A model generated the notes under the pieces. It worked only from the letters and a program-made list of their open reading frames with translations. It was not told the DNA's origin and made no database searches. Made by a program: the position numbers and the translations under genes. From a bacterium (lineage in GTDB: Bacteria > Oederibacteriota > CAKKQC01), in assembly GCA_919901855.1 (NCBI GenBank), contig CAKKQC010000010.1, positions 1 to 43,213 on the forward strand: a stretch of DNA of 43,213 bases. The letters run 5' to 3'. Of this stretch, positions 3,001 to 42,307 are shown piece by piece (position 1 is the first letter of the stretch; every line of letters begins with the position of its first letter).

Positions 3001-6000
3001 GGGTCGTGCCCGAGGTCGCCGTCGAGCCGGGCGGCGCACTCGTCGGACTCGAGGCGGGGCCGGTGCCCGCGGGTCCGCTCACGCTGACGGCGGGCGCATC
3101 GCAGGCCTTCGTCTGGACCTGGTCGGCGAACGGGGCCGGGCTCGCCGGGTTCACGGCGACCGCAACCGGGTCCACCTGCGGCGGCTCGCCGGTGCTGGCG
3201 GCTTCGAGCGTGTCGGCCACGATCCAGTCGCCCGCGCTCCTCGCGGCGTCGGTGGCGACCGGGCCCGGGGCGGCGTGCACGGGCGAGCCGATCATCGTCA
3301 CCCTCACGGTAACCAATACGGGGGGTGCGACGGCGTCCGGGCTGGCGGCGGCGCCGTGGTTCCTCGACGGCACGGGCGCGGTGGCGGGCGGGACCGGGCC
3401 GACGCCTGCGCTCGGCGGAGCGCTGGCCGGGGGCGCGTCGATGACCTTCACGTGGACGTACACGGGGTCGGCGGCGGGGCTCGTGACCTTCACCACGACG
3501 GTCACCGCCACGGACGCGAACAGCGGGCTCGCGGTCGGAGCCGGACCCGCGGCGTCGGCCCCGCAGTCCTTCGTGACGGCGGGCGCGCTCGTGGCGGCCG
3601 CGGCGGCGGGCCCGGTCACGGTCTCGGCGGGGCAGTGGGTGACGGTCGAGCTCACGGTCACGAATGCGGGCGGCGAGGACGTCTCCGGGATCACGGCGAC
3701 CGTCTACGTGGCCGGCTCCGCGTCCCTCGAGGCGGGCCCCGCGCCGGCCGGCCCCGTCACGCTGGCCGCGGGGGCGGCGCAGACGTTCGTCTGGACCTTC
3801 TCCACGGCGGGGTCGGGGGCGCTCGGGTTCACGATGACGGCCAATGGCATCACGCTGTGCGGAGGGACGCCGGTGCCGGTCCTCGGCGCCGCGACAGCCG
3901 CGGTCACGGTCCAGGCGCCGGCGGCGCTGGCCGCCCGGCTGGTCACGTTCCCGAGCCCGCGGACCGTGGGGCAGAACTTCCTCGTGACGCTGACGGTGAC
4001 CAACACGGGAGCCGCGGCTGCGCTCGTCGTGGACCCCGCGGCGTTCGAGCCTTCGGGTACCGGGACGGCCGGGCTCGTGGCGGGCCCCACCCCCTTGCCG
4101 CCGGTCACACTCGCGGGGGGCGCCTCCAGGACCTTCACCTGGACCTACACGGGCACGGTGGCCGGGACGGTGGTCTTCACGACTACGGTGACCGCCGTGG
4201 ACGCGAACAGCGGGCTGGGCGTGGCGTCCGGCCCGGTCGCCTCCGGCGGCGAGCTGATCCTGCCGCCCGCGCAGATCGACGTCGAGCTGCTCGCGCTGCC
4301 CGATCCGCGGAATGTGGGCCAGTCGTTCTTCCTGACGCTCACGATCACGAACACGGGCGCGACGCCCGTCACGGGCATCTCGTCCGGCGCGTTCGTGGTC
4401 TCCGGCTCGGGTGGCGCAGGCGGCGGCGTGGGGCCGACGCCGGCCCAGCCGCTCGCGTCGCTGGCGGCGGGCGCGTCCGTGACCTACACCTGGACGTACA
4501 CGGCGCTTTCGGTGGGGGTCGTGGACTTCACGACGACGGTCGTGGGGACGGACGCCGCGTTCAACCCCGTGACCGTCGGGCCCCTGGTCTCGAACCCGGT
4601 CGTCATCCAGGCGCCGGCCGGCCTCGCGGGGTCGCTCGTCATGGCCCCGGGCCAGGTCTCGACCGGGCAGTCGTTCCTCGTGATGCTGACGGTTACCAAC
4701 ACCGGTGGCGCCGCCGCGACCGGCGTGACGGCGAACGCGTTCCTGCGCACGGGGGCGGGGAACGCGGTGGCCATGGCCGGGCCCAATCCGTCCCTGCCGG
4801 CGACGCTCGCGGGCGGCGATAGCGTCGTCTTCACCTGGACGTACGCCGGGAGCGTGCCCGGGTCGTTCACTTTCACGACCACGGTCACGGGGACCGACGC
4901 GAACTCAGGCGCGGCGCTGACGACGGGCCCGCTCGTCTCGGGTCCCGAGGTCGTCCAGGCGCCCGCGGCGCTCGCCGCGTCGGCGGCCGCGTTCCCGTCC
5001 CCGGCGGCCAGCGGGGCGGGCTTCCTCGTGACGGTGACGGTCACCAATACGGGCGGAGCGGCGGCGACCGGGCTGACGCCGGCGGCGTTCGCGCCGTCGG
5101 GCACCGGGAGTGCGATCCTGGCGGCCGGGCCGCTGCCGGCGGCGCCGGTGGTCCTCGCAGGCGGGTCGTCCGTGACCTTCACATGGACGTACACGGCGGG
5201 GGCGACGGGGACGCTGGTACTGACGACGACGGTGACGGCCGCGGATGCCAACACGGGCGCGACGCTTTCCGCTCCTCCGGTCGTCGCCGGGCCGGTCACG
5301 ATCCAGACTCCCGCGATCCTGGCGGCGTCGCTGGCCGTGTCCCGCGCGACCTGCAACACCGGCCAGGACTTCCTCGTGATGCTGACCGTCACGAACACCG
5401 GCGGGGCTGTGGCGGCGGGCGTAACCGTGGCCGGCGCGCCCGTCCGGTCGGGGCCCGGGAACGCGACGGCGGGAGCCACCCCGGCCGGCCTCCCCGTCGT
5501 TCTCGGGATCGGCGCGTCGGCGACCTTCACCTGGACGTACACGGGCTCCGCCGCGGGGGCCGTCTGGTACACGATGACCGTGGGCGGAACCGACACGCTC
5601 CTGGGCGTACCCGTGGCGGCGCCTCCCGCCGTCTCGGGACCGGTCGTGATCCAGACGCCGGCCGCGCTCGTGGCGCGGACGACCGTGACCACGGCCGCCA
5701 CCTGCGTCGGCCAGCCCTTCCTGGTCATGGTCACCGTGACGAACACGGGCGGGGCGACGGCGGACCTCGCGGCGGCGCCGCTGCTGGAGACCGGCGGCGC
5801 CTCGACGCCCGCCGCCGGGCCGTCGCCGGCCGTGCCGCTCAGTCTGGCCGGGGGAATGACGGTTACCTTCACCTGGACCTACGCGGGGTCCGCCGGCGGC
5901 GCCTCGATCTTCACGGTCACGGTGGCGGGCACCGATGCGAACGCGGGCACGGCGGTGTCCGCCGGCCCGGCCGCGGCGGGGCCCGTGAGCGTCACGCCGC

Positions 6001-7670
6001 CTGGCGCGTTGGTGGCGGCAGTCTCGGCGCCGTCGTCGGTGACGGTGGGCCAGACCATCCAGGTCGTCCTGACGGCCACGAACTCAGGGATCGCGGCGGT
6101 GACGGGAGTCGTCCCCGCGGTCGCGATCGGGCCGGGCGGGGCCCAAGTCGTGCCCGCGGGCGGGCCGATCCCGGCCGGCCCGGTGTCCCTGGCGACGGGG
6201 GTGGGGCAGTCGTTCACCTGGCTCTACCTCGTGACGGGGGCGGGTCCCGTGGCCTTCAGCGCGACCGCCACGGGGAGCGACCTCTGCGCGGTCCGCGCGG
6301 CCGGCGCCACCGCTCCAATGGCCGCCCAGACGCCGGCTTCCCTCGCCGCGTCCCTCGCCATGCTCCCGCCCGCCACGAACGTGGGATCGGCTTTTCTACT
6401 CACGTTGACGGTGACGAACACGGGGTCGGCGGCGGTGAGCGGCTTCGCCGTCGAGCCCGTCTCGTTGGGCGGTTCCGGCGCCGTGACGCTCATCGCGGCG
6501 CCGGCGGTGCCGGCCTTCCTCGCGGGCGGCGCTTCCGTGACCTTCACGTGGACTTTAGCGGGGGCGTCGCTCGGCCCCGTGGACTTCACGACGACGGTGG
6601 CGGGGCTTGACGCGAACTCGGGGTGGGCCGCGGGCGGGGGCCGCGTGACGCTGGCGGCAACCGTGAACGCGAAAGCCGTGCTCGTGGCCGACGCCGCGCT
6701 CATGCCGGCCACCGTCTCGGTGGGCCAGACCATCACGGCGACGTTCACGGTGACCAACACGGGCACCAACCCCGCGCTGTTCGTGACACCCGTGGCCGTC
6801 AACGCATCCACGGCCGGGCTGGCTCAGTCCGCGCCCCTGCCGGGGGTGACGACGATCGCGGCGGGCGCGACCCGCACCTTCGTCTGGCAGTGGCAGGCCG
6901 TGTCGGCCGGGACGGTGGACCTGTCGCTCTCGGTGTCGGGACAGGATTCGGTCAGCGGGGAGATCACGTTCGCCACCCGCCAGCTCACGGGCGCGGTCCA
7001 GGTGCCCGGCTCGCTGGCGGCGTCCATCGCGCTCTCGGCCACCGACGTCATGGCCGGCGCGACCGTCTGGGTCTCGACCACGGTCACGAACACGGGCGGG
7101 GCGGCGGTGGCAGGCATCGTGCCGGTCCTCTCCATGATCGGCGGGGCGGTTGGTGTGCTCGCCGCGCCCCCGCCGGGGGCGATCACGCTCGCGGGCGGAA
7201 CGTCCGTCACGTGGACGTGGACGCTGACGGCCGCGGTGCCCGGGGTCGAGACGTTCACGGGGGCGGCCACGGGGACCGACGTCAACACCGGCGCGGCCGT
7301 CGGGACGGTCACGTCGACGCGGGGCCTGCGCATCGAGGGCACAGGGCTCTCGGTGGTGTCGTTCTCGGTGTCCGCCGGGCTCGCGGGGCTCGACGACCTC
7401 ATCCAGGTGCGGATGACGCTTTCTAACACGGGGACCGTTTCGGATCCCGCCGTGGCGCCCTCTACGCTCGCCGTGACCGGGGATGGCCGGGTGGCGCTGG
7501 TGTCGGGCCCCTCGCCGTCGACCACGACGCTCGGGGTCGGGCGGAGCGTTACCGTGATCTGGGTCTACCGGGCGGTCGGGGGTGGGACCGTGGCCTTCAC
7601 GGGATCGGCGTCGAGCGCGAACGGGGCGTCGACCGGGCCGGCGACTTCGGGGGCCGTCGTCATCCGCGAG
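3..7670 (+). repeat. Tandem array of about 22 Ig-like coding modules (period about 340-350 bp)
   Basis: The motif coding LTVTNTG recurs about every 345 bp through the gene. Two module kinds alternate in the first half. One has a GQW entry strand and a late CGG; the other has an early C.GQ and a TDANSG end. Later modules are mostly of the second kind. The array is already in progress at the left window edge. Confidence 0.9.
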
Positions 7671-7955
7671 GCCGGCGGCAGTCTCGCCGACGCCATCGTC
7701 TATCCCAACCCGTTCCGCCCGGCCGAGGCGGTGGGGGGGACGGTGAAGTTCCGCCGGATGCCGCCGAAGACGACGGTCATCCTCTACACGGTGGCGGGCG
7801 AGCGGGTCGGCAAGATGGAGGCCGACGCCAACGGGCTCGCGGAATGGAACGGGCGCAACCAGTGGGGAACCGCGGTGACGCCGGCCGTCTACTTCTACGT
7901 TCTCCAGGCGCCGGACGGTTCCCGCAGGATCGGGAAACTGCAGGTCACGCCCTAG
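3..7955 (+). CDS. Giant secreted Ig-like repeat protein with FlgD-like C-terminal domain (5' end outside window)
   Basis: The frame is open from base 3, so the true start lies upstream and more than 2,640 residues are visible. I count about 22 modules of roughly 115 residues, each carrying the strand motif LTVTNTGG.A.TG followed by a TFTWTYSG-type strand. This is the pattern of CARDB/DUF11-type Ig-fold repeats of surface proteins. The last 90 residues (from about base 7680) hold YPNPFRP, an ILYTVAGE strand, a WNGRNQWG turn and a YFYVLQ strand. That is a FlgD-Ig/CHU-like C-terminal domain, which in many phyla marks secreted or surface-sorted proteins. Composition is extreme: Ala, Gly, Thr, Val, Pro and Ser dominate, and I see only one lysine before the C-terminal domain. 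Tandem hairpins follow the stop. A role as surface stalk, adhesin or matrix protein is inference; no catalytic motif is visible. Confidence 0.9.
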   Translation, partial: TYSGTVAGAVTLSTTVAGTDANSGATVTAPCAAAAGAVTTPGAFAVAGAAPVAVSEGQWFAVALTVTNTGGTAVTALSATVYAGPGGGLVSEAGGPVPINLASLAVSGATTFYFSFTATGTGPVTFTVTVAGTTLCGGVPVTVEAAGSVTVQVQVPAQLTAQAVQYASTICAGQPYLVTLTVTNVGEADATGVDVQWPLSPWAVSGGGGAVYAAGPEPAMPVTVAGNTSVTFTWTYSGSLAGLVTLTTTVTGTDANSAQALATAPVPAGAITIAAAGILAARTTVSPGQVSTGQWITVALTVTNVGGADATAVTPAIDIGPGAVALETGPIPAGPVTLVAGASQTFVWTYSTAGAGLAVFTATANGTTCGGTAILAASIISATVQAPARLDAVVHVTAPAACTGQAFLVTLTVTNAGEADATGLTAAAWELSGGGAATGVGPSPSFGAALAGAASRTFTWTFTGTVAGPVTFTTTVTATDANAGTALTAGPLATGPVAVAAPGVLAAAASAPPVLSVGQWFPLELTVTNTGGADVTGVTATAYVNPGAGFVSGLSPADPAGPVTLVAGASQTFVFGMTATGAGVVTFTVSGAGATCGGGTALVAQSGASATVQTAAALVASMHLVPGSVCTGQDVLVTLTVTNTGQATAWGLDLVAPPLVMTGTGSVSPVAGPEPAFPVSLAGGVAMTFTWTYSGAVAGPVTLSTTVAGTDTNSGASLSTGVVAAADTITTPGAFAAAIASPAMVSTGQLYRVWLTVTNTGGTAVTGLSATIYAGPGGGLVSGPQGPVPVDLGSLAAGAATTFVFSYTATGAGAVAFTVTVTGSTLCGGVAVPVQAVETVAVTQQAAVVLVASAVQYASAICAGQPYLVTVTVTNTGQADATGVDLTSPFAVSGSGVTAPSAGPNPSLPFVLAGGAAETFTWTFSGSVAGPVVLTVTVAGTDANGGWPVVSGPAVTNSVALQAAGILAARTSVSPGQVSIGQWITVVLTVTNTGQADVTGVVPEVAVEPGGALVGLEAGPVPAGPLTLTAGASQAFVWTWSANGAGLAGFTATATGSTCGGSPVLAASSVSATIQSPALLAASVATGPGAACTGEPIIVTLTVTNTGGATASGLAAAPWFLDGTGAVAGGTGPTPALGGALAGGASMTFTWTYTGSAAGLVTFTTTVTATDANSGLAVGAGPAASAPQSFVTAGALVAAAAAGPVTVSAGQWVTVELTVTNAGGEDVSGITATVYVAGSASLEAGPAPAGPVTLAAGAAQTFVWTFSTAGSGALGFTMTANGITLCGGTPVPVLGAATAAVTVQAPAALAARLVTFPSPRTVGQNFLVTLTVTNTGAAAALVVDPAAFEPSGTGTAGLVAGPTPLPPVTLAGGASRTFTWTYTGTVAGTVVFTTTVTAVDANSGLGVASGPVASGGELILPPAQIDVELLALPDPRNVGQSFFLTLTITNTGATPVTGISSGAFVVSGSGGAGGGVGPTPAQPLASLAAGASVTYTWTYTALSVGVVDFTTTVVGTDAAFNPVTVGPLVSNPVVIQAPAGLAGSLVMAPGQVSTGQSFLVMLTVTNTGGAAATGVTANAFLRTGAGNAVAMAGPNPSLPATLAGGDSVVFTWTYAGSVPGSFTFTTTVTGTDANSGAALTTGPLVSGPEVVQAPAALAASAAAFPSPAASGAGFLVTVTVTNTGGAAATGLTPAAFAPSGTGSAILAAGPLPAAPVVLAGGSSVTFTWTYTAGATGTLVLTTTVTAADANTGATLSAPPVVAGPVTIQTPAILAASLAVSRATCNTGQDFLVMLTVTNTGGAVAAGVTVAGAPVRSGPGNATAGATPAGLPVVLGIGASATFTWTYTGSAAGAVWYTMTVGGTDTLLGVPVAAPPAVSGPVVIQTPAALVARTTVTTAATCVGQPFLVMVTVTNTGGATADLAAAPLLETGGASTPAAGPSPAVPLSLAGGMTVTFTWTYAGSAGGASIFTVTVAGTDANAGTAVSAGPAAAGPVSVTPPGALVAAVSAPSSVTVGQTIQVVLTATNSGIAAVTGVVPAVAIGPGGAQVVPAGGPIPAGPVSLATGVGQSFTWLYLVTGAGPVAFSATATGSDLCAVRAAGATAPMAAQTPASLAASLAMLPPATNVGSAFLLTLTVTNTGSAAVSGFAVEPVSLGGSGAVTLIAAPAVPAFLAGGASVTFTWTLAGASLGPVDFTTTVAGLDANSGWAAGGGRVTLAATVNAKAVLVADAALMPATVSVGQTITATFTVTNTGTNPALFVTPVAVNASTAGLAQSAPLPGVTTIAAGATRTFVWQWQAVSAGTVDLSLSVSGQDSVSGEITFATRQLTGAVQVPGSLAASIALSATDVMAGATVWVSTTVTNTGGAAVAGIVPVLSMIGGAVGVLAAPPPGAITLAGGTSVTWTWTLTAAVPGVETFTGAATGTDVNTGAAVGTVTSTRGLRIEGTGLSVVSFSVSAGLAGLDDLIQVRMTLSNTGTVSDPAVAPSTLAVTGDGRVALVSGPSPSTTTLGVGRSVTVIWVYRAVGGGTVAFTGSASSANGASTGPATSGAVVIREAGGSLADAIVYPNPFRPAEAVGGTVKFRRMPPKTTVILYTVAGERVGKMEADANGLAEWNGRNQWGTAVTPAVYFYVLQAPDGSRRIGKLQVTP
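160..4290 (+). repeat. Higher-order duplication: two six-module blocks of about 2.07 kb
   Basis: Modules 1-6 (about 160-2230) match modules 7-12 (about 2230-4290) in order and in idiosyncratic residues. Examples are YAGPGGGLVS at both ~247 and ~2320, VQYAS.ICAGQPYLVT at ~493 and ~2566, and GILAART.VSPGQVS at ~831 and ~2895. Offsets are 2064-2073 bp. The first bases of the window match base ~2076 onward at the same offset, so a further block probably lies upstream. Confidence 0.75.
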
Positions 7956-19048: not shown

Positions 19049-21254
19049 GATCCTGGCGGGCAATAGCCCCGGGAGGGCCGATCTGCCGAACGTGTGGGAC
19101 AACCTCTGGGCCGCGATCGCGGGAAGGCCGGGCGCTTCCCCGGCGGCGAACGATGCATGGTCGCACGAAGTCTTCCGGCACCATCCCCTGCCCATGTGGA
19201 TTACGGACGTGGAGACGGGGGAGTTCGTCGAGGTGAACGCGTCGGCCCTCCGCCACTACGGTTACACTCGGGCCGAGTTCCTGCGGTTGACCCTCAACGA
19301 TCTGCGCCTCCCCGAGGACATCCCGCGCGTCAAGGCGTATCTCGAGAGCCTGGGTCCCCTGACCGGCCCGGTGGACGTCGGAGTCTGGCGGCATCTTCGC
19401 AAGACCGGGGAGTCCGTCGAGATGCACGTCACGCTGATGCCGGTCGAGTTCGCGGGGCGTCCTTCCCGCGCGGTCATGGCCTCCGATGTGACGCCCCAGC
19501 GGGTAGCCCAGGACGCTCTCGCCGAGATCCGCCAGCAGTTCGGATCGCTCCTGGATATCGTGCCAAATCCGATCACGATGACCGACCTCGAGGGCCGCGT
19601 GGTCCTCGTCAACCAGAAGGCCAAGGAGCGCTGGGGTGTCACGGATGAGAAGCAGTTGCTTGGTCTCAACGCCTTCGACTTCATCGCGCCCGAGGACCGG
19701 GAGCGGGCGAAGGAGAACATGGCGGCCACCATGCGCGACGGGGCCATTCGCGAGGTCGAATACACGATCCTGCGGCGGGACGGCTCGTCGTACCCGGGCG
19801 AGCTCTCGGCCTCCCTCGTCCGCGACGCGCAGGGAAACCCGAAGTGGTTCCTCGGCGTCATCCGCGACCTCTCGGAGCGCAAGATGGCCGAAGCCCAGCT
19901 CAAGCACTACGCTCTCCACGACGCGCTCACGACCCTGCCGAACCCCGAGCTCTTCCGTGAGCATGTGGCCCGGTCCGTGGACCGCGCGGTCCGGCAGGAC
20001 GGGTGGCAGTACGCCGTGCTCCTGCTCGACCTCGACCGGTTCAAGACCGCGAACGAGAGTCTGGGCCACCACGCCGGCGACCAGCTCCTCATGGGCGTGA
20101 CCGGCCGGCTCAAGGACTGCGTTCGGCCGGGCGACATCCTCGCCCGGTACGGCGGCGACGAGTTCGCCGTCCTGCTCAACGCCCTCAAGGACCGGCACGA
20201 CGCGATCGCGGTCGCGGACCGGATCCAGCAGGCGCTCAAGGAGCCGTTCCGAATCCAGGGGCAGGAAGTGCACATCTCGGCCTCGGTGGGCATCGCCCAC
20301 GGCCAGCCCGTTCACGCCAAGGCCGAGGACGTGCTCCGCGACGCCGCGGCGGCGCTGACGCGGGCGAAGGGTATGGGGAAGGCCCGGTTCGTCGTGTTCG
20401 CGGACGGGATGCAGTATCCCGCGATCAAGCTCGTCCAGCTCGAGAACGAGCTGCGGCACGCCGTGGACCGGCTCGAATTCGAGGTCCACTACCAGCCGCT
20501 GGTGTCCCTGAAGGACGGCGGGATCACGGCGCTCGAGGCCCTCGTGCGCTGGCGCCATCCGACGCGGGACCTGGTCCTGCCGGCCGAGTTCATCCCGATG
20601 GCCGAGGACACGGGGCTGATCGAGCCGATCGGGGAATGGGTGCTGCGGACCGCGTGCGCGCACCGGCGCGAGTGGCGGGCCCCCGGCGGCCGGCCCCTGC
20701 GCGTGAGCGTGAACGTGTCGGCCCGCCAATTCCAGCGCCAGAACCTGCCCGAGCTCCTGCGCCAGGTGCTCAAGGACGAGGCCGTGCCGGCCTCCGCCCT
20801 GGCGCTCGAGATCACGGAGTCCGTGGCGATGGAAAACCTCGCCTACAGCGTGTCGGTGCTGACCGAGCTGGCGCGGATGGGCATCGAGGTCATGATCGAC
20901 GACTTCGGGATCGGCTACTCCTCCCTGAACTACCTCAAGCGGTTCCCGATTCGGACGATCAAGGTGGACCGGTCGTTCATCCACGACGTCGCCACGAGCC
21001 CGGACGACGCCGCGATCACGCGTGCGATCGTGGCCATGGCGCACAGCCTGAATCTCGTCGTCGTGGCGGAGGGGGTGGAGACGGCGACCCAGCTCGCCCT
21101 CGTCCGCAAGTTCCGGTGCGACCAGGCGCAGGGCTTTCTCCTCAGCCGGCCGGTCCCGGCATCGACCGTGGCCGCCCTGCTCGCGAAGAAGCACCCCTTC
21201 GAATCGTTCCGCGCCGGGCGCGGGACGAGCGGCGGGCCGAAGAAGAAGGGTTGA
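19038..21254 (+). CDS. PAS-PAS-GGDEF-EAL cyclic-di-GMP signalling protein
   Basis: The protein has up to 738 residues and no membrane segment, so it is cytosolic. PAS 1 covers about 42-155 (PMWITDVETGEFVEVN) and PAS 2 about 165-290 (PNPITMTDLEGRVVLVNQ). The GGDEF domain (about 292-455) has an intact GGDEF in ARYGGDEFAVLL, with an RxxD inhibitory site (RPGD) five residues before it. The EAL domain (about 465-725) has ALEALVRW, VNVSARQF, LEITES, IDDFGIGYSSL, IKVDRSFI and VVAEGVET, so the phosphodiesterase ligands look complete. Both synthesis and hydrolysis of c-di-GMP are therefore possible; in such fusions one activity often dominates. The start is uncertain: GTG 19038, ATG 19047 or a later GTG 19092. 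The pilin system nearby is a plausible output, by inference only. Confidence 0.9.
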   Translation: MRRMILAGNSPGRADLPNVWDNLWAAIAGRPGASPAANDAWSHEVFRHHPLPMWITDVETGEFVEVNASALRHYGYTRAEFLRLTLNDLRLPEDIPRVKAYLESLGPLTGPVDVGVWRHLRKTGESVEMHVTLMPVEFAGRPSRAVMASDVTPQRVAQDALAEIRQQFGSLLDIVPNPITMTDLEGRVVLVNQKAKERWGVTDEKQLLGLNAFDFIAPEDRERAKENMAATMRDGAIREVEYTILRRDGSSYPGELSASLVRDAQGNPKWFLGVIRDLSERKMAEAQLKHYALHDALTTLPNPELFREHVARSVDRAVRQDGWQYAVLLLDLDRFKTANESLGHHAGDQLLMGVTGRLKDCVRPGDILARYGGDEFAVLLNALKDRHDAIAVADRIQQALKEPFRIQGQEVHISASVGIAHGQPVHAKAEDVLRDAAAALTRAKGMGKARFVVFADGMQYPAIKLVQLENELRHAVDRLEFEVHYQPLVSLKDGGITALEALVRWRHPTRDLVLPAEFIPMAEDTGLIEPIGEWVLRTACAHRREWRAPGGRPLRVSVNVSARQFQRQNLPELLRQVLKDEAVPASALALEITESVAMENLAYSVSVLTELARMGIEVMIDDFGIGYSSLNYLKRFPIRTIKVDRSFIHDVATSPDDAAITRAIVAMAHSLNLVVVAEGVETATQLALVRKFRCDQAQGFLLSRPVPASTVAALLAKKHPFESFRAGRGTSGGPKKKG

Positions 21255-21261
21255 CCCGGCG

Positions 21262-22827
21262 CTACCTTCGCAAGTCGAGGACGACGGCCAGCGGCACGCC
21301 CATCCGCGATACCGTGATGACTTCCTTCCCTCCCCGGGGAGGCACGCATTCGCCCCAGGCAGCGGTCATGCCCAGGTAGAAATCGGCCCGCGCACCCCCG
21401 GTGGCGCGCACGAACCGGGGCCCCAGGGCCTCCGAGGCGGGCGCCCAGTCGCCGCACAACCGTACCCGCCATGTCCCGGTCCGCGGCTCCGCGGCCACGC
21501 GCGATGACAACCCGGCCGCCGCTTCCGTAATCGCGGTGCCCCAGTACTCGGTGTCGAACCGCCCCGCGGCGCCCCGGAGCCCCCCGGCGAAGGCGTTGAA
21601 CGACGCGTACTCGTACGGAAACAGCCGGGCGGTTAGAACGACCTGGCGGGCCGCGGCCACGACGAGAACAGCCGCGAGGACGGCGCTGCTCCGGTGGGAC
21701 AGGTGCGCCAGCAGGCGCTCCAGCGCGACCGCGGCGAGACAGGCGAGCGCGGGGAGGATGAAGAGCGTGTGGCGAATGCCGTTGTACATGGGCGTCCGGC
21801 GGGCGACGGCGTAGAGCAGCGGGAAGGCCGCACAGAGGCACACCGTCGCGACGGCGAGCACGGCGGGGTCGCGCCGCCATTCCCGGCGCCGCCGGCCCAG
21901 GCGCCGGAGCCGCGCCACCGCGAGCCCCGCCCCGGCCGCGAGCAGCAGGAGCAGGGGCTCGGGGAGGGTGAGGCCCAGCAGCACGGGTAGGTACGACCGC
22001 GGCAGCCGGGTCGCGACCTCGAGCCGGCCGTCGAAGAGGACGGGGAACGGGGTCGGGAACCGGTCGAAGACCCGCAGGGCGTCGAAGAGCCCGGTGACCG
22101 GGTGCGCGAGCGCGTATGGCCACGCCGCGAGCATGACGAGCCAGGCAATGCACGTCGTCAGCAGAAGGGTCCGCGCATACGGCCACACCCCCGGACGCCC
22201 CGGCGCGATCGCGGCGTGGGTGGCCAGCAAGGCGGCCAGACAGGCGAGGTAGATGACGCCTCCCGCCCGGACGCCGAGCGCGGCGCCGATGGCCACACCC
22301 GTCAAGGCCGCGAGGCCGGGCGGCGGGGCGCCGCCCGCCCGCGCCATCCGGACCAGCCCCGAAAGCGCCCACGCGCCGGCCGCCGCGAAGGGGATGTCCT
22401 TGGAGTTGATGAACATCTGGCCCCACCAGCCCGGGATGAGCGCGAGCAGGAGGGCCGCCACGAAGGCCGCGCGGGGTCCCCCGAGCGCGAGGGCGGCGTG
22501 CCAGCATCCCGCGATCCCGGCCAGTCCGGCGACGGCGCCCGCCAGCGACCGGGTTGCGTGGACGCCGAGGGCAGAGCGCGACGCCAGCCACGAGACCGGG
22601 GTCTCGAAGAGGCCGCCGTAGTAGCGCCAGTCCCAACTGAAGTTGCAGCGGACGTCACGTCCTCCCGTGGCGTAAAACCGTCCGAGGAGCGTTCCGTAGG
22701 CCTGCTGGGTCGGCTCGTCCGCCGCTACGCCGTAAGAGCGGAACGTGGCCAGCGCGACGCCCGCCAGGACGGCGAACAGGACGAGCGTGGCGAGGTGCCA
22801 GCGGGCGCCGGACCCGGGGGGAGCCAT
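21262..22827 (-). CDS. GT39/PMT-type GT-C glycosyltransferase-like membrane protein
   Basis: The 521-residue protein has about ten or more membrane helices. After the first helix the outer loop reads YGVAADEPTQQAYG. The DE pair here is the hallmark of GT-C transferases (PMT/GT39), which use polyprenyl-phosphate sugars. The next segment, NSKDIPFAAAGAWAL, resembles the family's second conserved region. The C-terminal ~110 residues are a soluble domain (FDTEYWGTAITEAAAG onward). Donor and acceptor are unknown. ATG 22827 was chosen because a -10-like TATGAT lies 7 nt upstream and the residues before it look non-coding. The gene is divergent from the next GT-C gene, with start codons about 20 bp apart. 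It converges with the GGDEF-EAL gene, 7 bp away. Confidence 0.75.
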   Translation of the reverse strand: MAPPGSGARWHLATLVLFAVLAGVALATFRSYGVAADEPTQQAYGTLLGRFYATGGRDVRCNFSWDWRYYGGLFETPVSWLASRSALGVHATRSLAGAVAGLAGIAGCWHAALALGGPRAAFVAALLLALIPGWWGQMFINSKDIPFAAAGAWALSGLVRMARAGGAPPPGLAALTGVAIGAALGVRAGGVIYLACLAALLATHAAIAPGRPGVWPYARTLLLTTCIAWLVMLAAWPYALAHPVTGLFDALRVFDRFPTPFPVLFDGRLEVATRLPRSYLPVLLGLTLPEPLLLLLAAGAGLAVARLRRLGRRRREWRRDPAVLAVATVCLCAAFPLLYAVARRTPMYNGIRHTLFILPALACLAAVALERLLAHLSHRSSAVLAAVLVVAAARQVVLTARLFPYEYASFNAFAGGLRGAAGRFDTEYWGTAITEAAAGLSSRVAAEPRTGTWRVRLCGDWAPASEALGPRFVRATGGARADFYLGMTAAWGECVPPRGGKEVITVSRMGVPLAVVLDLRR

Positions 22828-22833
22828 GGACCG

Positions 22834-22840
22834 TATCATA
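22834..22840. promoter_or_regulatory. Shared bidirectional -10 element for two divergent leaderless genes
   Basis: The 7-bp TATCATA reads TATCAT on the plus strand, 7 nt before ATG 22847. It reads TATGAT on the minus strand, 7 nt before ATG 22827. Each gene thus has a TANNNT hexamer at the leaderless distance within the same bases. Confidence 0.55.
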
Positions 22841-22846
22841 GAAGGA

Positions 22847-25450
22847 ATGCACGCACTCTTCGTGGTCTGGGCAGTCGTGATCCTCGTCCAGCTCGCCCGG
22901 CCGCTCTCGGGCGCGTGGGCCGGGGCCATGGTCCAGCTCGGGACGGGCTGGGCCGCGCCGTCGGCCGCCGGCGTCCTCGCCGCCGCGACGGCCCACGCCT
23001 CGGTCCTCCTCGCGGCGGGCGGGATCGCGGGGGTCCTGTGGCTCGCGGGGCTCGCCGTTCTGCCGTGGAGCCGCTCCCCGCGCGGGCTCTCGGCGTTCGC
23101 CGCGTTCCCCGCCGGCTACGCGGGGGTGAGTCTCGGGTATCTCGGCCTCGCGCTGACGGGGCTCTGGTTCCCGCGCGTGCTCCTCCCGGTCCTGGTCCTG
23201 CCCGGGCTGGTCGCCGTGCTCGTCCGCGGGCGCCGGCTGCTCCCGCGCGGGACGGCGTGGCCGGCGGCGGACGGCCCGGGTGTGCTTGCGCTGGCGGTCC
23301 TCACGTGCGTCGTGCCGTGGGCGCTCGCGCCCGAGACGCACCCCGACGGCTGGGAGTACTTCCTCGCCGGGCCCGCGCGGTGGCTCGCGGCGCACCGGTT
23401 CTCGGTCCGGGGCGGGACGCCGCCCCTGCACTATCCCGACATCGCCGAGATGCTCTACGTCCTCCCGGTGTGGCTGGGGCTGGATGCGGTCGCGAAGTGG
23501 CTGAACGCGCTCGCCATGCTCTGCGGCGCGCTCTCCGTGGCCTCGCTCCTCCCGCGGGAATCGCGGAGCATGGGGTTGCTCCTGTTCGTGACCGCCGCGA
23601 CGCCGTTGTTCCTCATGACGACGGGGAAGAACGAGGGCTTCGCGGCGGGGTTCGTCCTCCTCGCGGTCGCGTGCGCGTGGCGGAATGCCTGGACGGCGGG
23701 CGGGTTCTTCGCCGGGCTCGCGCTCTCGACGAAATACCTCTCGGTGCTCAACCTCGCCTGGCTGCCGCTCCTCATGACGCCGGGGCGCCGCCGCGCCCAG
23801 TTCACGCGGTGGGCCGCGCTCGCGGCGGGCACGACGGCGGCGTGGTGGGTGAAGGCGTGGCTGCTGACCGGCGATCCCGCGTACCCGGTGGCGTCCGGGT
23901 TCCTGCCCGGTCTGGTGGACGGCTGGGACGCCCGCAACGCCCGCGTCTGGCACCTGTGCACGGCCGTCGACCGCCCGGCCGGATCCTGGCCGGTCCGGGC
24001 CGTGCAGGGGTTGACACTGGAGAACGCGGCGCTCGCGCTGTGCCTCCCCGCCCTGCTCTGGGAGAAGGGGCGGGCGCGGCTCGCGGTCGCGGGCTCCGTG
24101 GCCGTCTACGCCGCCTGGCAGATCGGGTTCCCGGGACCCCAGACCGTGCGATGGGCGTTCCCCGGCGTGGCGGCGGCGCTCGTGCTCTCCGGCGGGCCGG
24201 CCCGCCGGTGGCTGGCGGGCCCGAAATATCTGCGCACGGCGTTGCTGGCCGTCTGCGTCGCGGGCGGCGTGCACGCATTCCTGCGGCTGGCCGGGAACGG
24301 CATGAACCCCCTGCCCTATCTCGCCGGAGCCGAATCCCGGGCGGGCTATCTCGCGCGGGCCTTTACGACCCTGGTTCCGGCGTCCGACGCGGTCCGCCGG
24401 GGCTTTTCCGGCGGCGCCCTGCTCCTCGTCGGCGAGGTGCGCGAGTACGGCCTGCCCTTCCCCTGCCGGCTCGCGAGCGCGCATGCGAGCGGGGAGGCTC
24501 CGCTCCTGTGGCGGCTCGTGCACGCGAGCGCGACCGAGCGCGACCTCGAGGTCCGGTTCCGCCAGCTCGGCATCCGCCGCGCACTGTACAACTACGTCAC
24601 GGTCAAGAACGTCCAGTTCTGCCACGCGCCGTTCCGGTGGGACGACCGGATGCTCAGGCTATACGCTGGGTTCGTCCTCCGGCACTTCAAGCCCCTCCGC
24701 GTCTCCGACGTCGCGGATTTCTCCAACGGCGGGTTCATTGTCTACGGCGTGACCGCCCGGGCGATCCCGAACCCTCCGAAGACGGCGCCGTACCTCCCGG
24801 GCGCGGAGGCCTACTGCCACACGGCGGTGCCGCTGCGGAACGCCGGGCGTATGCCGGAGGCCCTGCGCGCGTACGAGGCGCTCGCCGGGCTCTGTCCCGA
24901 GGTCCTGTCGTTCCAGGCGGAGTGGGGGCACACCCTCGAAATGGCCGGCGACTGGCCGGGGTCGTTCCGCCTCCTCGGGGCCGCGGTGCGCGCCGGATTC
25001 GCGGAGCCCTTTCACCTCGTGAACTTCGGGCTCGCCGCCCTCCAGATGGATCGCTACGCCGAGGCCGACGCCGTCCTCACGCGGTGCCTGGCCGGCGCGC
25101 CGTCGCATGCGGGCGCGGTTCGCGTCTCGCTGGGCTGGGCCCGCTACGGGCTGGCGCTGGAGGCGGGGAAGAAGCGGAATCTGGCGGTCGCGGAGGTGCG
25201 ACTGGCGGAGGCCGAGGGGCTCCTGGGCCTCCCGGCGGGCCCCCCGGGCGACCGGATCGAAAACGAGCGTCGGCGGCGGCTCGCGTACGTGCGCGGCCTG
25301 CAGGGCGACCTCGCGCGCGCCCGCCGCGAGTTCCCCCGCGCCGTCGAGCGATACCGCGCGGCGGCCGCGCTCGTGCCGGGGACCAACGAGGGGAACGTCT
25401 GGTCGGAACTGGCGTCCCGCCTCGCCAACCGCGGTATCACGGGTCCCTGA
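22847..25450 (+). CDS. GT-C-like membrane protein with C-terminal TPR-like domain (paralogue A)
   Basis: The 867-residue protein has about ten membrane helices (residues 1-450) followed by a soluble half. The first large loop has HPDGWEYFLAGPARWLAAHRF, comparable to the catalytic loop of GT-C transferases. A later loop has TTGKNEGFAAGFVLLAV. The C-terminal ~250 residues look like TPR helices (EALRAYEALAGLCPEVLSFQAEWGH, then FGLAALQMDRYAEADAVL). It is homologous along its length to the protein at 30264-32873, sharing KN-x-AAGF.LLAV, YNYV-type and SNGGF/PNGGF landmarks. The function is unproven; transfer of a sugar or other polyprenyl-linked group is inferred from the fold. ATG 22847 is preferred over ATG 22826 because the -10 lies between them, 7 nt before 22847. 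Confidence 0.75.
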   Translation: MHALFVVWAVVILVQLARPLSGAWAGAMVQLGTGWAAPSAAGVLAAATAHASVLLAAGGIAGVLWLAGLAVLPWSRSPRGLSAFAAFPAGYAGVSLGYLGLALTGLWFPRVLLPVLVLPGLVAVLVRGRRLLPRGTAWPAADGPGVLALAVLTCVVPWALAPETHPDGWEYFLAGPARWLAAHRFSVRGGTPPLHYPDIAEMLYVLPVWLGLDAVAKWLNALAMLCGALSVASLLPRESRSMGLLLFVTAATPLFLMTTGKNEGFAAGFVLLAVACAWRNAWTAGGFFAGLALSTKYLSVLNLAWLPLLMTPGRRRAQFTRWAALAAGTTAAWWVKAWLLTGDPAYPVASGFLPGLVDGWDARNARVWHLCTAVDRPAGSWPVRAVQGLTLENAALALCLPALLWEKGRARLAVAGSVAVYAAWQIGFPGPQTVRWAFPGVAAALVLSGGPARRWLAGPKYLRTALLAVCVAGGVHAFLRLAGNGMNPLPYLAGAESRAGYLARAFTTLVPASDAVRRGFSGGALLLVGEVREYGLPFPCRLASAHASGEAPLLWRLVHASATERDLEVRFRQLGIRRALYNYVTVKNVQFCHAPFRWDDRMLRLYAGFVLRHFKPLRVSDVADFSNGGFIVYGVTARAIPNPPKTAPYLPGAEAYCHTAVPLRNAGRMPEALRAYEALAGLCPEVLSFQAEWGHTLEMAGDWPGSFRLLGAAVRAGFAEPFHLVNFGLAALQMDRYAEADAVLTRCLAGAPSHAGAVRVSLGWARYGLALEAGKKRNLAVAEVRLAEAEGLLGLPAGPPGDRIENERRRRLAYVRGLQGDLARARREFPRAVERYRAAAALVPGTNEGNVWSELASRLANRGITGP

Positions 25451-25453
25451 TCC

Positions 25454-25470
25454 GCCGGGAACCGGCCTTT
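25454..25470 (+). terminator. Short hairpin between convergent genes
   Basis: GCCGG, a 3-nt GAA loop, CCGGC and then CTTT follow the stop of the plus-strand gene. The 5-bp stem is short, so activity is uncertain. Confidence 0.3.
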
Positions 25471-27739
25471 AGGGCAAGGAGCCGCGCCAGACGCCGCCGC
25501 CGCAGGTCGTGACCCAAAGTGTTCCGGCGTTCACGGGATCGAACGCCACGCGCTGACATCCCGCGAACGGAATCCCCGCCACCTCGGTCCACGTCTTCCC
25601 GGCGTTCCTGGTCGCGAACAACCCGTGCGTCGGGATCCCGGCGTACACGGTGTCGGGCGCCTGGGAGTCCAGCGAGAGGAACAGCGCGTGCGCAGTCGAC
25701 GATATCTCCTGCGGGAGGGTCTCCTCCCCGAGGACCTTCTTCCAGCTCTTGCCCCCGTCGGCGGTCCGGTAGACGCCGCCGTCACCGCGGCCGGGAACGG
25801 ACGCGAGGGCGAGGTAGATGACATTGGGATCGACCGGGTGGACGGCGGCGTCGCCGGGCCACCGGGGCAGGAGGGTCGCGGTGAGATCGTCCCAGGTGGC
25901 GCCCCGGTCGCGCGACCGCCAGAGTCCGCCGGGCACGGGGAAGGCGTCGCCCGCGCGGCGGCCCGTGACGACGCAGAAGACCGACCCGCCGGGGTGGACG
26001 ACGAGCCGGAAGAAGTGGCGGTTGCCCTCGCGGCCCGGCTGGGCCGGCGTCGCGCCCCAAGTGCGGCCGCCGTCGTCGCTCCGGTGAACGCCCTTTCCAT
26101 ATGAAGAGGCGAAGAGGACGCGGGCGGCCTTCGGACTGCGGGGATCCATGACCACCGAGGTCACGGGCGATTCCGGCAGGCCCCGGCCGGACGGCGTCCA
26201 GGTCACCCCGAAGTCGCGGCTGACGACCACGCCGCCGGAGCCCGTGGGCCCTTCGAGGCTCGACCAGTGGGGGATATCGGGCTGGTCGGACGCCGCGGCC
26301 CAGACCAGCCCCGGGATGCCGGGGTCGAACGCGAGCTGGTAGAACGTGTTGCGCCAGGGGGAGCCGCCGGCGGCCCAACGCCACGTGGCGCCGCCGTCGT
26401 CGCTGGCTTCCAGTCCGGCACCGGACGATCCGACCAGGACTCGGCCCGGCCGGTGGGGGTCGAAGACGATGTCGCAGCCGGAGGTGCCGTCGAGCCCGGT
26501 CGAGGTCCACCGGGCGCCCTCCTTCCAGGGGGGCCCCGGTTCGGCGGGGCGGCTGTAGGTTTGGGTCCAGATCCCGCCGCCGTCCCGGGTCTGGTAGAGC
26601 TCGCCGCCGTCGGTGAAGACGGCATGATCGGGATACCGGTCGTCGGCTGCGATTCCGCCCCCCGCGCCGTTCCACCAGCCGAGGACGTGGTCGGCCGTCA
26701 GCCAGCCCGGCACGAGGTTGGCGCGGATGCCCGAAGCCTCGCCCCGGGGGTCGCCGAAGACGACCGCGCGCCACGTCGCCCCGCCGTCGTCGGTGCGATA
26801 GATGGTCGTGTGGTTCGGGGGCCAGTAGCCGGTGCCGTCCGCGGTGACCCAGACCGTGTACGGCGCCGCCCGCGGGACCGCGAGCCGGCCGTACTGGGCG
26901 GTCTCGCCCGGTCCCCAGGCGTCGGCGCGGGTGACCTCCACGTTGATCCCGGCCCCCATCGCCGTCTGCCAGGTGGCGCCGTGGTCGAGCGACCGCCAGA
27001 CGCCGCCCTCGAGGCGGCCCTGGACGGCACGGCTCGGGAGGGTCACATAGCATGCGATCTTGCCGGACTTCGCGTCCCCGGCGCCGCGGAACGCGCGCAG
27101 GTCCCGGGCGGGCAGTCCGCCGTTCGAGTCGTGCCACCGGGAACCCGAGTCGCCGGACCGGAAGATCCCGGCGGTCGTGCCGATCACGACGATCCGGTTG
27201 CCCGGCGGCGTCGTGGGGTCGATGAGGATGCCGATAGTGCGGCCGCGCACCCCGACGCAGATCCCCCAGGTCTTTCCGCCGTCGAGACTGCGGAACGCTC
27301 CGTACGAAGTCCCGGCGAGCATCATCTTCGCGTCCGGCTCGTCCACGGCCAGCGCGGTCAGCGCCTCTCCGCCCCAGGGCTGGTTGAGGCATAGCGGCTT
27401 CCACGTGACGCCGGCGTCCTTCGACATCCTGAGCGACCCGGCCCCGCTCGCGTAGATCCATCCGCCGTAGACCGGGTGCCACACCATGGGGGCCGCGGCG
27501 GCGTCCCGGAGCTGGCGCTTGTCGATCAGGTTCCAGCTCGCGCCGCCGTCGCCGCTCCGGAAGACCCCGCCCTTCTCTGAGGCCACGAACAACAGGTTCG
27601 GGTCGTGGGGCGAGATCGAGGGCACGACGAGCGCTCCGCCGCCGCCGGGGCCGACCGGGAGGAACGTCGCTACGGCGGGGGCGGCACCGGCCTCGCGCGT
27701 GAGGCACGCGCAGGCCAGAAGCCATGCAGCGGGGCGCAT
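25469..27739 (-). CDS. Secreted beta-propeller protein with Asp-box/BNR repeats (sortilin/YCF48-like)
   Basis: The 756-residue protein starts with MRPAAWLLACACLT, a short signal sequence; cleavage by signal peptidase I near AGAAPA is likely, though the cysteines leave a lipoprotein possible. The body carries many Asp-box motifs of the form S.DGG.TW: FRSGDGGASW, MSKDAGVTW, FRSLDGGKTW, YRTDDGGATW, SRDFGVTW, HRSDDGGRTW, YRTADGGKSW and TRNAGKTW. This spacing is typical of the 10-bladed VPS10/sortilin-like or YCF48-like propellers often annotated as exo-sialidase-like. I see no sialidase active-site arginine triad, so an enzymatic role is not supported. ATG 27739 has a perfect TATAAT 6 nt upstream. 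Confidence 0.82.
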   Translation of the reverse strand: MRPAAWLLACACLTREAGAAPAVATFLPVGPGGGGALVVPSISPHDPNLLFVASEKGGVFRSGDGGASWNLIDKRQLRDAAAAPMVWHPVYGGWIYASGAGSLRMSKDAGVTWKPLCLNQPWGGEALTALAVDEPDAKMMLAGTSYGAFRSLDGGKTWGICVGVRGRTIGILIDPTTPPGNRIVVIGTTAGIFRSGDSGSRWHDSNGGLPARDLRAFRGAGDAKSGKIACYVTLPSRAVQGRLEGGVWRSLDHGATWQTAMGAGINVEVTRADAWGPGETAQYGRLAVPRAAPYTVWVTADGTGYWPPNHTTIYRTDDGGATWRAVVFGDPRGEASGIRANLVPGWLTADHVLGWWNGAGGGIAADDRYPDHAVFTDGGELYQTRDGGGIWTQTYSRPAEPGPPWKEGARWTSTGLDGTSGCDIVFDPHRPGRVLVGSSGAGLEASDDGGATWRWAAGGSPWRNTFYQLAFDPGIPGLVWAAASDQPDIPHWSSLEGPTGSGGVVVSRDFGVTWTPSGRGLPESPVTSVVMDPRSPKAARVLFASSYGKGVHRSDDGGRTWGATPAQPGREGNRHFFRLVVHPGGSVFCVVTGRRAGDAFPVPGGLWRSRDRGATWDDLTATLLPRWPGDAAVHPVDPNVIYLALASVPGRGDGGVYRTADGGKSWKKVLGEETLPQEISSTAHALFLSLDSQAPDTVYAGIPTHGLFATRNAGKTWTEVAGIPFAGCQRVAFDPVNAGTLWVTTCGGGVWRGSLP

Positions 27740-30263: not shown

Positions 30264-32873
30264 ATGACGACGGCGCTCGCGTTGGGGTGGGCAGCCGTCG
30301 TGATCCGCTCCGCCCGCGGCGACGGGGCCGCCTGGCTCGACCGGCTCCGCGACGCCATCCGGCATCCGCCGCAGATCCCGGCGCTTTCCGGCCTGGCCGT
30401 CGCGTGCGGGCGCCACTCGGTCACGGTCCTCGTGCTCGCCTCCCTTGCCGCGTTGGCGTGGCTCGCAGGCCGCCGCGTCGCCGCCCTCGTGCGGGCCCCG
30501 CGTGTCCCGCCGGCCGCGGGGTTCGGGTTCGCCGTCGCGTCCGGGTGGGGCCTGCTCGGGTTCCTCCTCCTTGGGCTGGCGCTGACCGGGCTCTTCCAGC
30601 CTGCCGTGGTGCTCTCCGCTATCGCGGTTGCCGGGGCCGCCGGCATCGGGGCGCCGGGACGGCTCCCCGTTCTCCCGCGGCTCGACCGGGGCACGGCCGC
30701 GATCCTGGCCGTCGTGGGCCTCCCGGGAGTCGTGCTGGGCGTCGCGGCGCTCCTGCCCGACGTCTTCTACGACACCTACGCGAACCACCTCGCGGCGCCC
30801 GCCCACGTCCTCGGGCTCCACCGGCTCGTGACCGCCGGCCAGCACTACACGATCAACTACCAGCTTGCCTCCGAGCTCCTGAACGCGCTAGCCATTGTCT
30901 TCCGGCGGGATGAAATCGCGCACGGGGTCTCCCTGATCCCGTTCCTGGCGGGGCTGGGCGTGGCCGCGGCGTGGACGGCCCGGGTCGCGGGTCCGCGGGC
31001 GGCCGCACTCGGGGCCGCGCTGGCCCTCGACCTCGGCGGGTTCTGGTGGGTGGTGCTCCGGGGCAAGAACGATCCCGCGGCGGCCGGGTTCATTCTGCTC
31101 GCCGTCGTGTTTTCCGTGGACCGGCGGTGGATCCTCTCCTCCCTGTGCTGGGGGTTCGCGCTGGCGGCCAAGCTCAACGCGTACATGCTCGCGATGCCGG
31201 CGGCCGCGCTCGCGGCGTTCGTGATCCTGCGGGCGCCCGCCGGCCGCCGCGGCCGTACGCTCGCGTGGTCCGCGGGGCTCGCCGCCATCCCCGCCCTGCC
31301 CTGGATGGTCCGGTCATGGCTCGACCGCGGGACACCATGGTGGCCGCTCCTCTCCGCCCGGTTCCACGGCGTGCCGTGGGAACCCGACACCGTGGTCGCG
31401 CTCGCCCAGTACCACACCGGGCCGTCGTTCGTGACCGAGTCGCTCTCGAGCTTCGTGCCAACGTGGCTGGCGGACAACCCCATCCTGCTCTGGGCCCTGC
31501 CCGTCGCGGCGTGGCAGCTGCGACGCGCGCCTGCGGCGCTCCGGCGGATGGGGGGATGGGCCGCGATGCTGTTCCTGTTCCTCTTTGGCGTCATCCATAT
31601 GGAGTACGGCCGGTACTCCCTGCCCATCCTCGTCCTGCTCGGGTTCGCGTGCGCGCCCGCGATCCTGTCGATGATCCCGTCCGGCCGGGGCCGGTGGATC
31701 GGGTGGGCGGCCGTCGTCGCGCTCGCGTGGGCCCCCGCGGCGGGCGCGCTCCGGGAGATGGGGCTCGGCGCCCGGGAGATCGCCGGGTACGCCTCCGGGG
31801 CGATCACGAACGGAGAGTGGATGGACCGGGTCCTGACCACGCGCCGCGCCGCCCAGCAGGCGGTGGCCGCGATGCCGGGAGTCCGCGGCGTCGTCCTCGT
31901 GGACGAGGTGTACGCCTACGGGTGGCCGGGCCGCGTCCGAACCGACGAGATCCCCGGCCGGGCGATCCCGTGGGTGCTCACCCACGAAGCGTCGACCCCG
32001 GCGCGGGTTCGCGTCGGGCTCCGGCAGTTGCGCGCCAGCCACCTCGTCCTGAACTACGTGAGCGAGGGCCACCCCTACAACGCGAGCATCTACGAATGGT
32101 CCGACCGCCAGCTCGAACTCTGGCGCGCGTTCCTGAAGCGGCACGCCGAACGCGTCGCGATCGACCTGCCATGCGACGTGCCCAATGGCGGGTTCTGCCT
32201 CTGGAGGCTCGTGGCCTCAGCTCCGCCGGAGCCGTTGTTCTACCTGCTCGGGATCAAGCCCCTGCGGGTCTGGATCCGGAAGCCGTACCTCGACGCCGGG
32301 GACGCCCCGGCCTCGGCCGCCCGCGCGCTCGCCGTGAGTGCGCGGTTTCCCGACGTGCTCGTCTTCAAAGCCGATGCCGGGCTCTTTCTGGCCGGGTCGG
32401 GCGAGTGGGCCAGGGGCTACCCGCTGCTGCGTGAGTGCGCGGCGGCGGGGATGGTGGGGGAGGCGCTCCACACGTACCTCGGGTCGGCGGCCATGCACCT
32501 GAACCGGTACGACGAGGCCCTGCGCCACCTGGCGACGGCCGGGCGGCTCTACCCCGGCGCAAGAGCCGATATCGAGGCGAGGACGGGGGAAGTGCTGGCG
32601 CGGAAGGCCCGGGCCGAACTCCGCGCCGGTCTCTACGGGCGCGCGCTCGACCTCGCGATCGAGGCGGTGCGCCTCGCGCCCGCATCTTCGTTTTCCCTCG
32701 TGACGCTGGCTGACGTGCGGATGGTGCGTGGAGAGACCGCGGAGGCGCTTGCCGGCTACCTCCGGCTCGCGTCGCTCGCGGGCGTCCCGGACGGAATCCG
32801 GCGGCACGCGGACGAGATGATCGCGAGGTGCCGGGCTACGCCCAGCGGTTCGCCCGGTACCAGTCCCAGGTGA
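30264..32873 (+). CDS. GT-C-like membrane protein with C-terminal TPR-like domain (paralogue B)
   Basis: The 869-residue protein has about ten membrane helices, then a soluble region from about residue 480. The first large loop has DVFYDTYANHLAAPAHVLGLHR; a later loop has LRGKNDPAAAGFILLAVVF. The C-terminal ~200 residues are TPR-like (AMHLNRYDEALRHLATAGRLYP, then YGRALDLAIEAVRLAPASSF). It shares order, length and landmarks with the protein at 22847-25450, so the two are paralogues. Sugar-lipid transfer is inferred from GT-C resemblance only. No SD precedes ATG 30264, and the start sits just after a 56-bp hairpin that may block read-through or ribosome access. The 3' end overlaps the convergent SDR gene by 38 bp. 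Confidence 0.75.
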   Translation: MTTALALGWAAVVIRSARGDGAAWLDRLRDAIRHPPQIPALSGLAVACGRHSVTVLVLASLAALAWLAGRRVAALVRAPRVPPAAGFGFAVASGWGLLGFLLLGLALTGLFQPAVVLSAIAVAGAAGIGAPGRLPVLPRLDRGTAAILAVVGLPGVVLGVAALLPDVFYDTYANHLAAPAHVLGLHRLVTAGQHYTINYQLASELLNALAIVFRRDEIAHGVSLIPFLAGLGVAAAWTARVAGPRAAALGAALALDLGGFWWVVLRGKNDPAAAGFILLAVVFSVDRRWILSSLCWGFALAAKLNAYMLAMPAAALAAFVILRAPAGRRGRTLAWSAGLAAIPALPWMVRSWLDRGTPWWPLLSARFHGVPWEPDTVVALAQYHTGPSFVTESLSSFVPTWLADNPILLWALPVAAWQLRRAPAALRRMGGWAAMLFLFLFGVIHMEYGRYSLPILVLLGFACAPAILSMIPSGRGRWIGWAAVVALAWAPAAGALREMGLGAREIAGYASGAITNGEWMDRVLTTRRAAQQAVAAMPGVRGVVLVDEVYAYGWPGRVRTDEIPGRAIPWVLTHEASTPARVRVGLRQLRASHLVLNYVSEGHPYNASIYEWSDRQLELWRAFLKRHAERVAIDLPCDVPNGGFCLWRLVASAPPEPLFYLLGIKPLRVWIRKPYLDAGDAPASAARALAVSARFPDVLVFKADAGLFLAGSGEWARGYPLLRECAAAGMVGEALHTYLGSAAMHLNRYDEALRHLATAGRLYPGARADIEARTGEVLARKARAELRAGLYGRALDLAIEAVRLAPASSFSLVTLADVRMVRGETAEALAGYLRLASLAGVPDGIRRHADEMIARCRATPSGSPGTSPR

Positions 32874-42292: not shown

Positions 42293-42298
42293 TATCAT
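42293..42298 (+). promoter_or_regulatory. -10 element of the TldD/PmbA-like gene, leaderless
   Basis: TATCAT ends 9 nt before GTG 42308. The surrounding GTATCATAG is the same as at 22833-22841. Confidence 0.4.
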
Positions 42299-42307
42299 AG
42301 GGAGTCC

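Follow-up and report, generated by a model that had tools for sequence, protein, structure and literature searches.

A probable −10 element shared by two divergent, putatively leaderless genes for GT-C-like membrane proteins in an Oederibacteriota genome

Known bidirectional and leaderless promoters

Bacterial promoters that are read in both directions have been described by Warman, Grainger and colleagues, in which a near-symmetric −10 element is read both ways and the divergent transcription start sites (TSSs) lie about 10, 18 or 23 bp apart, with 18 bp being the ideal spacing (PMC12825309, PMC10268837). The commonest arrangement among the known bidirectional promoters is the TANNNTA register (PMC12825309, PMC10268837). 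In five E. coli bidirectional promoters that were tested, the basal activity was too low for the two directions to affect each other, and competition was seen only once one direction was strongly activated (PMC12825309). Separately, leaderless genes preceded by TANNNT have been reported (PMC3160421), e.g., in Deinococcus-Thermus (PMC12340547) and in M. tuberculosis (PMC3898074), and represent a common mode of expression in high-GC genomes.

The site described here lies in the window (i.e., the whole stretch of 43,213 nucleotides that was analysed, with a GC content of about 67–75%, from a 4.68-Mb genome), where the sequence TATCATA at 22834–22840 separates two divergent genes. This site resembles the Warman/Grainger promoters in its near-symmetric −10, its TANNNTA register, its predicted TSSs about 18–20 bp apart and the steric exclusion of two polymerases. 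However, TSSs have been mapped for those promoters, in E. coli and in Salmonella, whereas at the window site both products are predicted to be leaderless, which would place the start codons at the TSSs, and no −35 is recognisable. As in known leaderless genes, TANNNT stands about 12 nt before each start, with no predicted leader and no properly spaced Shine–Dalgarno sequence, but the known reports describe one gene per −10, whereas the window element would provide one −10 for two genes. The M. tuberculosis lysG/lysE pair is similar in that the genes are divergent, their promoters overlap and one lysE transcript is leaderless (PMC5648196). It differs in its 108-bp intergenic region, in its regulation by LysG via an inverted repeat, and in having a further promoter of its own for the leaderless transcript (PMC5648196). 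No description of leaderless bidirectional promoters was found in the open-licence papers searched; shared −10 elements and leaderless genes are each known, and their combination looks little described.

The two genes and their start codons

A motif-blind gene caller, for which 437 kb of this genome served as training data, delimited the plus-strand gene (22847–25450, 867 aa) and the minus-strand gene (21262–22827, 521 aa). Each stands alone, with a convergent neighbour that ends at 21254 on the minus-gene side and one at 25469–27739 on the plus-gene side. As neither gene follows another in an operon, neither can be transcribed from an operon promoter further upstream, and the promoter of each must sit either in the 19-bp gap between the start codons (22828–22846) or inside the opposite gene. 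Elsewhere in the window, 48–7955 is a very long gene of about 2635 codons, where many antisense frames score as coding.

The AlphaFold model of the minus protein (mean pLDDT 87.8) gave a best Foldseek match to ArnT (5f15, E 9.6e-8), with further matches to AglB, PglB, OST, ALG9 and PMT structures, which supports a GT-C fold for this predicted glycosyltransferase-like membrane protein. The model of the plus protein (mean pLDDT 82.7) matched AftA and ArnT (TMt 0.53–0.54) on its membrane part, ALG9, and TPR proteins on its C-terminal part, with Foldseek scores weaker than those of the minus protein and with weak TPR matches in Pfam, so that it is likely a GT-C-like membrane protein with a C-terminal TPR-like region. 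The initial annotation of this DNA had called both genes GT-C-type, which the models bear out for the minus protein and leave at lower scores for the plus protein. Paralogues of the plus gene are numerous: its own genome contains 20 or more matches (on contigs C1, C12, C27 and others, and in the window at 30273–32864), several of them in tandem, and 15 matches occur in a genome of another genus of the same family, the nearest sequenced relative. For the minus gene, no match was found in that one same-family genome, and no usable orthologue of the window's gene pair was found in the relatives.

The starts picked by the gene caller as best-coding are ATG 22847 (plus strand) and ATG 22827 (minus strand), with small margins. 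Alternative in-frame ATGs at 22826–22828 (plus strand) and 22837–22839 (minus strand) are disfavoured only weakly by the coding score, with extension scores of −0.91 and −0.22 log units, respectively. Because these scores barely differ, coding potential alone cannot settle the starts, and a comparison of the N-termini of paralogues, made to fix them, gave no decision.

The probable shared −10 element

The letters of the window confirm that TATCATA occupies 22834–22840. On the plus strand, the hexamer TATCAT (22834–22839) is followed by 7 nt, AGAAGGA, and then by ATG 22847–22849. On the minus strand, the hexamer TATGAT (22840–22835) is followed by 7 nt, ACGGTCC, and then by ATG 22827–22825, giving an offset of −13 from the start codon for both genes. 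The two 7-nt distances and the separation of about 20 bp between the start codons, as claimed in the initial annotation, thus hold, the measured gap being 19 bp. The symmetry is confined to the 7-mer.

The motif TATSATA is found twice in the window, compared with 0.16 copies expected from dinucleotide shuffles, of which 1 in 100 reached two copies. Both copies directly precede a start codon. An arrangement of this kind arising by chance is very unlikely. The other copy, also TATCATA (42293–42299), lies 9 nt upstream of GTG 42308, and the region 42293–42310 is itself a candidate leaderless or near-leaderless promoter.

On inspection of the 19-bp gap, neither TATCAT nor TATGAT is preceded by TGn, and no −35 is recognisable. 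Within about 400 bp, TATCAT 22834–22839 is the sole TANNNT on the plus strand, and the minus strand holds TATGAT and TACGGT alone, the latter too near a start. A properly spaced Shine–Dalgarno sequence is absent on both sides, since GAAGGA abuts ATG 22847 and none stands ahead of ATG 22827.

Predicted leaderless promoters across the genome

The offset seen at the window element was compared with 437 kb of stretches from the same genome, in which the count covered 150 genes that either are divergent or are separated from the upstream same-strand gene by more than 30 nt. A TANNNT hexamer starting 11–15 nt before a possible start was found for 51 of the 150 genes, compared with 10–26 in the other 5-nt bins (12 at −10 to −6), and when only the best-coding start was considered, the −15 to −11 bin held 33 genes compared with 4–12 in the other bins. 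The 51 genes also show features that were not imposed by the search: the fifth letter of the hexamer is A in 36 cases, and G occurs at −2 in 69% and T at −3 in 43%, the last two being the extended −10 signature (TGnTANNNT). Genes at most 20 nt behind a same-strand upstream gene showed no TANNNT signal and carried Shine–Dalgarno-like motifs instead. The enrichment at 11–15 nt before starts indicates that predicted leaderless or near-leaderless promoters are normal in this genome. The window element matches the hexamer and the offset of these genes, but without TGn on either side. The offset distribution is bimodal, with peaks at −15 and at −13/−12, which suggests that some of these genes are leaderless in the strict sense and that others carry a 2–3-nt leader.

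Recurrence of the arrangement

The pattern CAT-N5–9-TANNNTA-N5–9-ATG gave 16 matches in the genome, compared with 4 for a core of the same composition, AANNNTT. A first filter, which asked for a coding frame on either flank, left 10 pairs (GTG forms among them); on its own, this filter was dropped as lax, as 157 pairs pass it in 437 kb, mostly through antisense frames of real genes. With the motif-blind gene caller, seven distinct sites (L062, L066, L068, L073, L074, L083 and L091), the window's included, were located between close divergent genes. None of the 4 AANNNTT matches lay between such genes. A second permuted core, ATNNNAT, was not a clean control: it gave 17 matches, and of 14 loci, three fell between close divergent genes. 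Two of these three (L108 and L110) have, on inspection, a −10 hexamer for each direction, in overlap registers other than TANNNTA.

In the recurrent pairs, both starts lie near the element. The hexamers of these pairs vary (TATCAT, TATTGT, TAGGAT and others), with TATCAT and TATGAT being the commonest and only the −10 positions in common. At one site (L083), the genes for ObgE (obgE) and an aspartase/fumarase start 20 bp apart around TATGATA, and the first residues of both proteins align to positions 1–3 of full-length curated profiles, which fixes both starts. A paralogue of the minus gene with 42% identity (L003 3040–3057, on contig C14 of the same genome) stands head to head with a gene for a TPR protein, with the overlapping −10s ACTATAAT between them. 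A separate observation concerns a 23-bp perfect palindrome, CATGGTCATATNATATGACCATG, which occurs in near-identical form at L075 1501–1523 (contig C62 of this genome) and at L161 1501–1523 (contig C587 of the same-family relative). In this genome, it directly precedes a Phd/YefM-like antitoxin gene, and it looks like an autoregulatory operator that would also contain the start codon and the −10.

In the same-family relative, 11 pattern matches were found compared with 2 in a reversed-pattern control, a weak control that reverses the start codons too (hence the core-permuted controls described above), and at least 5 close divergent pairs are present. For two orthologous pairs (L091/L158 and L108/L144), the genes stand head to head with a shared −10 in both genera, the overlap register being different in the L108 pair. 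Thus, the initial annotation's description of the site as very compact stands, but "unusually" compact does not, given the seven sites in this genome and at least 5 pairs in its relative.

Outside the phylum, a genome that appears Thermus-like by its best PDB matches (G063) gave 11 pattern matches compared with 0 in the reversed-pattern control; 5 have both flanks coding under the lax filter, and 4 lie between close divergent genes under the stricter one, scored with the codon model of the window's genome. These matches suggest that the shared −10 arrangement arises generally, as a by-product, in genomes with leaderless, TANNNT-driven genes, and is not peculiar to a single organism. Among the low-GC relatives (G016, G024 and G028), 0 of 11 loci lay between close divergent genes under the same codon model, which is poorly suited to them; in G024, the pattern gave 16 matches compared with 3 in its control.

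Proposed mechanism and alternatives

The letters, the shuffles, the recurrence elsewhere in the genome and the two orthologous pairs with a shared −10 in the relative point to TATCATA being a bidirectional sigma-70-type −10 that drives both genes as leaderless or near-leaderless mRNAs, and we put the probability of this reading at roughly 0.8. The gap of 22828–22846 would then hold the whole core promoter. RNA polymerase would bind TATCATA in either orientation, because in the TANNNTA register the key bases of one direction, −11A and −7T, are base-paired with those of the other. Rightward, transcription would start at A22847 or A22846 and yield the plus-gene mRNA with a leader of 0–1 nt; leftward, it would start at or beside 22827 and yield a leaderless minus-gene mRNA. 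The initial annotation had proposed one −10 for two divergent leaderless genes; the shared −10 is retained here, and "leaderless" is widened to leaderless or near-leaderless, with two-way transcription and the exact 5′ ends being predictions from the sequence. Counting against the reading are the absence of TGn and of a −35 at this site, even though many of the genome's predicted leaderless promoters have TGn; the alternative in-frame starts, which the coding score disfavours only weakly; and the predicted TSS separation of 18–20 bp, which is 20 bp if the TSSs fall exactly on both ATGs, versus the class ideal of 18 bp.

Only one polymerase at a time would fit the element. It had been concluded from this that the two genes would be expressed in competition or alternation; the exclusion of a second polymerase holds, but the coupling is not established, considering the basal independence of the two directions in E. 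coli (PMC12825309). Without TGn or a −35, the window site is probably weak, with low basal activity, and its two directions are therefore probably nearly independent at ordinary occupancy.

A one-way promoter, with fortuitous symmetry and with the other gene either barely transcribed or served by a promoter at another place, is unlikely. A TATNAT −10 is nearly symmetric by nature, so that a one-way element often looks two-way, and bidirectional promoters serving two mRNAs amount to 24% in E. coli (PMC12825309). However, a search of about 400 bp showed no further −10 candidate for either gene, both 7-nt distances fall inside the genome's leaderless peak, and the recurrent pairs have both starts near the element, with those of the obgE pair fixed.

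It is highly improbable that TATCATA is incidental and that two leadered promoters lie inside the opposite genes, serving starts at ATG 22826 (plus strand) and ATG 22839 (minus strand). Both of these ATGs are in frame with little difference in coding score, and GGAG stands 2 nt before ATG 22826, although this is too close for a normal Shine–Dalgarno sequence. Over about 400 bp upstream, neither ATG has a TANNNT on the strand that would serve it, and a two-hexamer sigma-70 scan of 21000–25600 gave no match, such a scan being uninformative where −35s are absent. Either N-terminal extension would include an ATA codon, which is used about once per 1000 codons in the genome, and the extension of the plus gene would read through the −10. 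TANNNTA is moreover rare in coding sequence, with 25 occurrences in about 405 kb compared with 37 in 32 kb of intergenic sequence.

That TATCATA is a regulator's operator and no promoter element has a negligible chance of being correct: AT-rich palindromes between divergent genes can be operators, and the longer palindrome before the antitoxin-like gene recurs in the relative, but the symmetry here stops at the 7-mer, and the recurrent hexamers, which share only the −10 positions, are unlike the sites of one regulator.

Implications

A broader proposal builds on the bidirectional, leaderless reading of TATCATA: divergent leaderless pairs with one −10 may be a recurrent, selectively kept regulatory unit, both in this lineage and, by independent origin, in Thermus-like bacteria. 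The binding of one polymerase at a time would then couple both outputs, here two GT-C-like membrane proteins. This extension is tentative and, at present, doubtful.

If 5′ ends confirm the window site, it would be a near-smallest possible divergent promoter, i.e., a 7-bp element and two start codons within 25 bp, with no space for leaders or ribosome sites. It would unite two phenomena that have been studied separately, bidirectional −10s and leaderless genes, and the recurrent pairs, in some of which conserved N-termini fix the starts, would offer natural material for testing the coupling of two genes through one polymerase site.
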